64,000 nt of DNA from Acidobacteriota bacterium (GTDB taxonomy: Bacteria > Acidobacteriota > Thermoanaerobaculia > Thermoanaerobaculales > Thermoanaerobaculaceae). A program made the position numbers and the translations under genes. Every line of letters begins with the position of its first letter. Position 1 is the first letter of the stretch. Shown here piece after piece: positions 3,001-9,330 of this stretch. The stretch spans positions 1-64,000 of the forward strand of contig PMLC01000150.1 in NCBI GenBank assembly GCA_003158745.1. The letters are read 5' to 3'. The notes under the pieces were generated by a model. The model did no database searches. It was not told the DNA's origin and worked only from the letters and a program-made list of their open reading frames with translations.

Positions 3001-3957
3001 ATGAGCGAGGACCCCAGAGCGATCCGGATCGGTGTCTCATCCTGTCTGCTCGGCTGCAAGGTGCGCTTCGACGGAGGGCACAAGAAGGACGACTTCCTGG
3101 TGGGCACCTTCGGACGATGGGTCGAGTGGGTTCCGGTGTGCCCTGAGGTCGAGGTCAGGATGGGCACGCCGCGCGAGTCGGTGCGGCTTGTCCGCGAGGG
3201 GGACGGGGTCCGGATGGTGGCCCCCAAGAGCGGCAAGGACTGGACGGACGCCATGGGCTCGTACGCGGTGGAGCGCGTCGAGGAGCTTGTCGGCAAGCGC
3301 CTCTGCGGCTACGTGTTGAAGAAGGACTCGCCATCGTGCGGGATGGAACGCGTCAAGGTCTACGGCGCCGGCATGCCGACCAAGTCGGGTACCGGGGTGT
3401 TTGCTCAGGCGCTACTCGCGCGTCTTCCCAACCTGCCCGTCGAGGAGGAGGGTCGCCTGTGCGATCCCCAGTTGCGCGACAACTTCGTCGAGAGGGTTTT
3501 TGCCTACCACCGGCTCCGGCAGTTCTTCGACGGCCGTTGGGTGCTCAGTGGGCTGGTAGCGTTTCACACCGCAAACAAGCTGCAGCTGATGGCGCACGCT
3601 CCCAAGGCGTATGAGGCGCTCGGGAGGCTGGTGGCCGGGGCAAAGGCGACACCACGCGACGAGGTCACGGTCCGGTACGAAGACGCCTTTATGCAGGGGC
3701 TCAAGGTGGTCGCGACGGTCCGGCGCAACACCAATGTGCTCCAGCACATCCTCGGCTACTTCAAGAATTTGCTCGATACCGATGCGCGCGCCGAGCTCCT
3801 CGCGCTGATCGAGGATTACCACCGTGGCCTGGTTCCCCTGATCGTCCCGATCACGCTGGTCCGGCACTACGTTCGGCTGCATGGGGTGAGCTACCTCGCG
3901 GGGCAGACCTACCTGGAGCCTCACCCCAAAGAGCTGATGCTCAGGAACCACGTATGA
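3001..3957 (+). CDS. DUF523 and DUF1722 domain protein (YbgA-like)
   Basis: IRIGVSSCLLGCKVRFDGGHK...WVPVCPEVEVRMGTPRE...KKDSPSCGMERVKVY then DUF1722-like C-terminus. Confidence 0.85.
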   Translation: MSEDPRAIRIGVSSCLLGCKVRFDGGHKKDDFLVGTFGRWVEWVPVCPEVEVRMGTPRESVRLVREGDGVRMVAPKSGKDWTDAMGSYAVERVEELVGKRLCGYVLKKDSPSCGMERVKVYGAGMPTKSGTGVFAQALLARLPNLPVEEEGRLCDPQLRDNFVERVFAYHRLRQFFDGRWVLSGLVAFHTANKLQLMAHAPKAYEALGRLVAGAKATPRDEVTVRYEDAFMQGLKVVATVRRNTNVLQHILGYFKNLLDTDARAELLALIEDYHRGLVPLIVPITLVRHYVRLHGVSYLAGQTYLEPHPKELMLRNHV

Positions 3958-7540: not shown

Positions 7541-9058
7541 TCAGGTTCCCCCGCGACGGAGGTGGTGCCTGACCGTGCGCACGACACTCGCCTCCGGGAA
7601 GACCAGCGTTGCGTCCTCGAACGTCGCCGAGAGCAGGCTTCCGGAAGCGTCCATGATCGAGCGCACCACGGGCTGATCGGTCAGCGCCAGCGTGGCGGTC
7701 GGCCTGGGGACCGTCGACGGCGTCTCGAACGTCACGACGACCAGTTGGGCGTCACCCTGAGGGAACGCCAGTCCCGCAGGAAGCGCGACCGCTATCCCGA
7801 GGCGTCCGTTCGCGGCGTCAGAGTCGTCCACCGTCAGAGTGGCCGCCGCCGCACCGCTCCCCAGCGTGACGGTCGGGGTGCTCAGCACGACGGGATCGAA
7901 CGCGAGGCTGAAGCGCACCTCGTGCTCGTCGCCCAGCGCCGACATCACAACCGGGAGCGAGATCGGCGAGCCCGGAGTCACGGGCGCAGTCACCGCGCGC
8001 ACCACGCGCGGTCCCAAGAACGCCGTGATCGAAACGAATTGCGTAAATGCCATCCCGTCCTCACTTATCGCTGAGAGCGTGACGTGTCCCTCCTGCGATC
8101 CGGGGGCGAGCCCGCTCGCGCGGACTGTCACCGAGGGTTGGTCCGCGATCGTTCCGCCACCGGGCGCGACTGCGAGCCAAGCCGCATCGGTGGCTGCCGT
8201 CCAGCTCAGGACGTACGGTCCCGCGAGGCGGATGGAGACGGACCTGTCCTGGCCGGTGGCGGCGTCGATTCCCATCGTGAGGGCCGCCGGATCGACCGAG
8301 AACCCAGCAGGCAGGGCCATCGCCGCCTGCAGCATGTCGTACGCGGCCCCAGGTCCCGGGACGTAATCGGCGAGCACAACCGTGTGGAGCGCAGTCCAGT
8401 TCACACCGCTCAGGGCAGGCGATTCGAGCGTCGCGGTGAGCACGCCGTTGGGTGCGAGAGGGGAAGTGATGTCGAGCCAGGGAGCGGCGCGCATGATGCG
8501 GCCTGTCACGCCGACGTGCGCGTCTTCGTAGACGAGCGCGTGCAGCGCCGCCATGTTTGCGGAGGCGGAGAGCGTTGTGGCACTGGTGTTGTGGATTCGC
8601 GCGTAGACCCGCATCTGCGTTCCGACTTGGCGCGCGTACGCCTCAATCTCGGCCCCGGGAGGACGAAGGAGTTCCGGGTCCACGAGATTCTGGAACGCCG
8701 TCGTGAAGTTCGGCTGGTTGCCGGTCAGCAACTGGTGGCCGGAGTCGACGATGACGAGGGGGAGGTAGGCCGTGGCGCCGGTGAACACGGCCCAAAACCG
8801 GCTCATCCGGTCCCCGATCGGCGCATCGACGTTCTGCTCGATGAAGACGGCCCTGCCGGCGTACTGGACCGCCAGCGCATCGACCGCCGGACCGGCGGCC
8901 TGACAGATCGGTCAGGTGAAGCGCGTGAAGTCCTCGAACACCACGAGGCGGGATGCCGATTCGGCGGATGGCTGGGCTTGTGCCGTGCCGGTGCCCGCTG
9001 CGCCCACCAGCGCCAGTGCTGCGAGTGGAAATGCCAGCAATCTCGGGAACATGACCAT
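7541..9058 (-). CDS. Secreted thioredoxin-like / BACON-like / cohesin-like protein; candidate selenoprotein with in-frame UGA at codon 49 (8912-8914)
   Basis: Frame from ATG 9058: MVMFPRLLAFPLAALALVGAAGTGTAQAQPSAESASRLVVFEDFTRFT[UGA]PICQAAGPAVDALAVQYAGRAVFIEQNVDAPIGDRMSRFW..., continuous with the 421-aa ORF 8806..7541. Confidence 0.6.
8882..8914 (-). promoter_or_regulatory. SECIS-like hairpin immediately 3' of the in-frame UGA
   Basis: UGACCGAUCUGUCA-GGCCGCC-GGUCC-GGCGGUC: 7-bp stem (one G-U pair), 5-nt loop with G23 U24 counting from U of UGA. Confidence 0.5.
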
Positions 9059-9330
9059 CAGTGCACCTCGCGTCCCATTTCACAATCAAACTCGCTCGGA
9101 TGCAAGCGCAACGCACCCCAGCACCGGCGGAGCGGTTTCGCGGCCCCGCCGCGGGCCCTGGTGACCCTTGCCGGAGCCTCCAGAGTGCCCGGGCTCGCGT
9201 GCTAGACTTCGCGCCGTGGGGTGGCCGCTCTTCCCTCTCTCAACCGTGGTGCTGTGGCCGACCACCACGTCGCTGCTTGCGTTGTGACGCGTTCTAGCTA
9301 GTCCGATGTAGCCGGGAGGGCAACCCGCAC

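Follow-up and report, generated by a model that had tools for sequence, protein, structure and literature searches.

A probable exported selenoprotein with a thioredoxin-like UxxC active site in an Acidobacteriota genome

Introduction

A selenocysteine (Sec) form of bacterial thioredoxin (PF00085), carrying a UxxC motif, is known. Across prokaryotes, a 2026 review catalogues 119 selenoprotein families or subfamilies (PMC13188914). The hypothetical protein GOS_C, described as thioredoxin-like with a UxxC motif (PMC2398784), corresponds by the table of that review to the Omp28-related family NF045500 (PMC13188914). The bSECIS model given there has an apical loop of 3-9 nt on a stem of 4-16 bp, with G within the first two positions of the loop, at 16-37 nt from the UGA and with an MFE of <= -7.5 (PMC13188914).

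Here we analyze a gene with an internal UGA in a 64,000-nucleotide stretch of DNA (contig PMLC01000150.1, assembly GCA_003158745.1; hereafter the window) from an Acidobacteriota bacterium of the Thermoanaerobaculaceae, which an original prediction had marked as a candidate secreted selenoprotein of thioredoxin fold. Like bacterial thioredoxin, its product has a thioredoxin fold whose redox motif lies where helix 1 begins; unlike thioredoxin, it is multi-domain, predicted to be exported, and only marginally similar in sequence. It also resembles secreted proteins of the BACON and cohesin-like type, in which respect it differs by joining such domains to a Sec-containing thioredoxin domain.

Results

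An open frame across an internal UGA

Re-reading the sequence confirmed the predicted minus-strand frame (7541-9058), which runs from the ATG at 9058 through an in-frame TGA at 8912-8914 (codon 49, Sec49) to a TGA stop at 7541-7543, spanning 505 codons before the stop; all features of the gene given below lie on this strand. The translation across the UGA reads ...VVFEDFTRFT-U-PICQAAGPAVDALAVQY..., and the codon context (RFT-TGA-CCG-ATC-TGT, or TUPIC) places the UGA, as had been claimed, on the first position of a CxxC-type redox motif, here UPIC. The partner cysteine of this UxxC, Cys52 (8903-8905), is nearly invariant in the family, with Ser in its place in one Chloroflexota homolog (L080). 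A Shine-Dalgarno-like GAGGTG (9064-9069), kept in same-genus homologs, lies 5' of the ATG, and inspection by eye suggests an N-terminal signal peptide (8975-9058; ...TAQA/Q), with similar N-termini in homologs and no lipobox cysteine in this region. Because the ORF listing begins the gene at 8806, it misses both the signal peptide and the active site, as the original prediction had pointed out.

An open frame this long is by itself weak evidence, because the DNA is GC-rich and a 373-codon antisense ORF overlaps the selenoprotein gene. Long open frames are not rare here, and the case therefore rests on comparison with homologs, where the conservation goes beyond chance.

By neighbor names assigned by eye, the gene is flanked by a convergent MgtC-like gene and a divergent phosphate transporter gene and stands alone between them, a neighborhood that is kept in one homologous locus (L068) and partly in two others (L071 and L072). 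Inspection of the neighboring genes found no operon with redox genes, so that gene context names no substrate, and a plasmid search found no plasmid copies. Elsewhere in the window, positions 3001-3957 of the plus strand encode a protein that by eye appears to be of the DUF523 type, with Cys in GVSSCLLG; DUF523 is also catalogued in a Sec form (PMC13188914).

The genome encodes the Sec machinery

The host genome, a 3.7 Mb draft that is 96% complete, contains all four Sec genes named in the original prediction: selA (468 bits), selB (299.7 bits, above cut-off), selD (365.6 bits) and tRNA-Sec (71.9 bits, anticodon UCA). Its selD has an in-frame TGA of its own in GUASK, the classic in-frame UGA position of this gene. 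SelD would share SelB and tRNA-Sec with the window protein, and its UGA also precedes a short hairpin, but it is a selenophosphate synthetase of unrelated fold.

In the class as a whole, selA was found in all good genomes (109/109), and a strong tRNA-Sec (66-79 bits) in 19 of the 20 genomes checked, the exception (G006) having selA. Two further genomes (G008 and G011) have tRNA-Sec with no selA seen, and these missing genes look like draft-assembly gaps. Since all good genomes of the class and among the Chloroflexota genomes compared have selA, comparing the presence of Sec genes with the occurrence of UGA or Cys is uninformative in these groups.

The UGA is conserved in two phyla

The gene is present in 7 of 9 same-genus genomes (G000 included). 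A single in-frame TGA is kept in each of the seven copies, of which the six outside the window encode proteins 51-71% identical to the window protein. The same UGA occurs in two more genera of the same family (L029, L033 and L036), in a different family of the order (L053-L056), in a locus from elsewhere in the phylum (L099) and, by a scan of genome contigs with an alignment of eight UGA rows, in Chloroflexota (L074, L077, L079 and L080), for a total of 19 loci in two phyla. Its recurrence in independent assemblies means that it is no sequencing error. The architecture differs in L053-L056, where the thioredoxin domain is C-terminal and the UGA comes about 295 codons into the open frame; a UGA that stays in register despite such domain shuffling is hard to explain other than as a Sec codon. 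Only 7 of 396 genomes drawn from the phylum have the family, which is therefore narrow. In one genome (G011), the first 65 codons of the gene occur almost identically on two contigs (L028 and L035) whose upstream sequences differ, which reflects either a recent duplication or an artefact of assembly.

Compared with its nearest relative, the window gene has a dN/dS of about 0.15-0.4 before and after the UGA and of 0 within the hairpin codons described below, indicating purifying selection on either side of the UGA. These observations bear on the caveat of the original prediction, that a TGC to TGA nonsense mutation might have left a decaying pseudogene with a frame that merely happens to stay open downstream. 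Such a history would fit the decayed genes that were reported in the window and the frequency of long chance ORFs in GC-rich DNA. For this gene the caveat fails, as the same UGA is conserved in independent genomes, dN stays below dS past it, the SECIS is conserved and covarying, and the Sec machinery is complete; we consider a pseudogene to have next to no chance of being correct.

In the remaining relatives, the UGA column holds either TGC (Cys; L030, L032, L057 and L076) or a Gly codon (GGC or GGT; L031, L034, L037 and L049-L052). When this column was masked for tree building, the Cys label required three changes, L057 and L076 fell within Sec clades, and the Gly rows came out as a single group; midpoint rooting leaves the direction of change unset for L030, L032 and the Gly group. 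Within the Gly clade (L031, L034, L037, L049, L050 and L052), Sec is replaced and the partner Cys is kept. Together with the Ser of L080, this clade implies that a two-residue redox center is not universal in the family. One Gly member (L031) retains a good SECIS-like stem (-10.1 kcal/mol), perhaps a SECIS relic.

A covarying hairpin follows the UGA

A bSECIS-like hairpin (8882-8900) begins 11 nt past the UGA and consists of an 8-bp stem with a GUC apical loop, at a UGA-to-loop distance of 19 nt and with a stem energy of -13.4 kcal/mol; its geometry and energy agree with the published bSECIS model (PMC13188914). Numbered from the U of the UGA, columns 15-22 pair with columns 26-33. Across 18 UGA loci 93.1% of cells are paired, and across 21 loci (these 18 with L082, L083 and L099) 94.0%, versus 16-65% when the register is slid. 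The stem in these 21 loci contains 10 doubly changed cells versus 1.5 in shuffles, the best contrast being L083, where A-U and G-C replace G-C and C-G in the same register and with the same loop.

The median stem energy is -11.9 in UGA genes versus -6.8 in Cys and Gly genes (Mann-Whitney p 6e-5, for sequences that are related and not independent), with a weak stem (-5.0) in L080. In each of the 18 UGA genes tested, the stem is stronger than the average over synonymous recodings, a median of 3.9% of recodings being as strong; these recodings used the codon usage of the window, which fits the Chloroflexota loci only approximately. In the hairpin, third-position identity is 0.78, versus 0.42-0.63 elsewhere. 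Folding energies of 48-nt windows against dinucleotide shuffles gave z values from +1.0 to -3.7, a poor discrimination in GC-rich sequence; covariation and synonymous recoding discriminate the hairpin well. No Rfam model recognises it.

A rival account is readthrough of the UGA with insertion of a different amino acid, Trp or a near-cognate, and sequence alone cannot prove decoding. However, tRNA-Sec, SelA and SelB are present, TGA also terminates this gene and several of its relatives, the alternative residue in several homologs is Cys, the Sec analogue, and the hairpin fits the bSECIS model, making such readthrough very unlikely. The internal UGA is very probably read as Sec in a thioredoxin-like active site. 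The selenoprotein reading of the original prediction is in this way supported computationally by the Sec machinery, by the comparison of the UGA column and of substitution rates among relatives, and by the covarying hairpin. The observations that the prediction had listed as refuting it were each looked for, and none of them held.

A thioredoxin fold joined to beta domains

An AlphaFold model of residues 36-346, computed with the family alignment (pLDDT 92.4), contains a thioredoxin fold, a beta-sandwich and a BACON-like domain. The first of these (residues 36-135; 8654-8953; pLDDT 94.6) has Sec49 and Cys52 at the start of helix 1. Used alone in Foldseek, it found mostly thioredoxins among its top solved matches (TM-score 0.6-0.7), and profile comparison also led to thioredoxin structures, bearing out the thioredoxin-like segment of the original prediction with the UxxC at the active site. 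When the three-domain model was used instead, the Foldseek matches were all to beta-sandwiches, at low TM scores, and the single domain was preferred. P100 (in YLPLV), a candidate for the cis-proline that faces the redox motif in thioredoxin-fold oxidoreductases, is invariant in the family alignment, and Pfam Thioredoxin reached a best E of 0.034 (three members).

The beta-sandwich domain (residues 134-250; 8309-8659), defined on the same model, has no Pfam name. It is followed by a BACON_2 domain (PF19190; residues 253-323; 8090-8302), with 27.5 bits against a cut-off of 25; all 15 of the 15 homologs match this domain (E up to 1), some relatives falling under the gathering score. The C-terminal region (residues 356-467; 7658-7993) is cohesin-like by homology: Cohesin (PF00963) has no Pfam match in the window protein and scores 27.3 bits in L026 (gathering 24.1) and 16.6 in L023.

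A short basic C-terminal tail (RRHLRR-like; window 7541-7600) is common to L022-L029, L031, L034, L036 and L037, members that differ in their middle parts, while Chloroflexota members with an intact end have a YLP motif instead. The tail is possibly a sorting signal.

Relationship to described families

Fifteen members compared with NCBIfam matched no model near its cut-off, including those of other catalogued thioredoxin-like UxxC selenoproteins such as SaoT (NF040730), the nearest being NF045500 at 13.4 bits. Membership of this known Omp28-related selenoprotein family (NF045500, or GOS_C) is suggested by the local match over the UxxC region (residues 32-71) and by the thioredoxin-like fold, UxxC and UGA-decoded Sec that the two have in common (PMC2398784, PMC13188914). 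The match, however, is weak and covers only 40 residues, its score stands against a curated cut-off of 200, and none of 152 genomes of the class passes that cut-off (0/152); we judge membership improbable. In the class, three weak NF045500 matches (G126:C220:3589-4170, G126:C53:3293-3874 and G132:C112:26985-27662) have one in-frame TGA each and are possible further selenoproteins.

A second Omp28-like secreted family of the same order also has an in-frame UGA (FTNLFUTSC in L082:1901-1948 of G121, and FTNLYUTSC in L083:1881-1928 of G120), followed by repeats and with a hairpin in the same register as that of the window gene; L083 has no match near cut-off in NCBIfam. Profile comparison links the window family to this one at 96% probability with the UGA aligned.

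We conclude from these profile comparisons that the family is probably a distant relative of the Omp28 type, and it looks like a new selenoprotein family, set apart from NF045500/GOS_C by profile score. It was not found in the published bacterial selenoprotein catalogue, and literature searches, which covered few subscription journals, returned nothing on a selenoprotein with an Omp28 or BACON domain or on Thermoanaerobaculia with selenocysteine.

Discussion

Taken as a whole, the gene is best explained as encoding an exported selenoprotein in which the UGA at codon 49 specifies Sec and which most likely acts outside the cytoplasm as a thiol/disulfide-type oxidoreductase, a reading to which we assign a probability of about 90%. 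Machinery, UGA conservation, SECIS, fold and domain order are supported by the computations. In the cell, SelB and tRNA-Sec would decode the UGA as Sec, directed by the hairpin downstream, and the mature protein would be exported after its signal peptide. In the N-terminal thioredoxin-fold domain, Sec49 would serve as the nucleophile and Cys52 as the partner that closes a selenenylsulfide; a redox activity of this kind is likely, most plausibly as a thiol/disulfide-type oxidoreductase. The beta-sandwich, BACON domain and cohesin-like region that follow may hold the protein to a surface, to a polysaccharide or to a partner protein.

A broader and more speculative view, which we hold as possible though less than even in its odds, is that Acidobacteriota and Chloroflexota share a superfamily of multi-domain, exported selenoenzymes with this gene as its founder, in which a shuffled Sec-thioredoxin domain acts on surface or extracellular substrates, Sec has repeatedly given way to Cys, and a Gly clade has changed its chemistry. 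As part of that view, the retention of only the partner Cys in the Gly clade suggests changed chemistry and not simple loss.

The finding would add a selenoprotein family, apparently not yet catalogued, from uncultured bacteria that are known chiefly from metagenomes, in a gene that automatic callers shorten such that the active site is lost. Because almost every genome of the class carries the selA marker, further genes of this sort may be mis-annotated there. With UGA, Cys and Gly spread within one family, and SECIS strength in step with them, the family offers a ready system for questions of Sec gain and loss.
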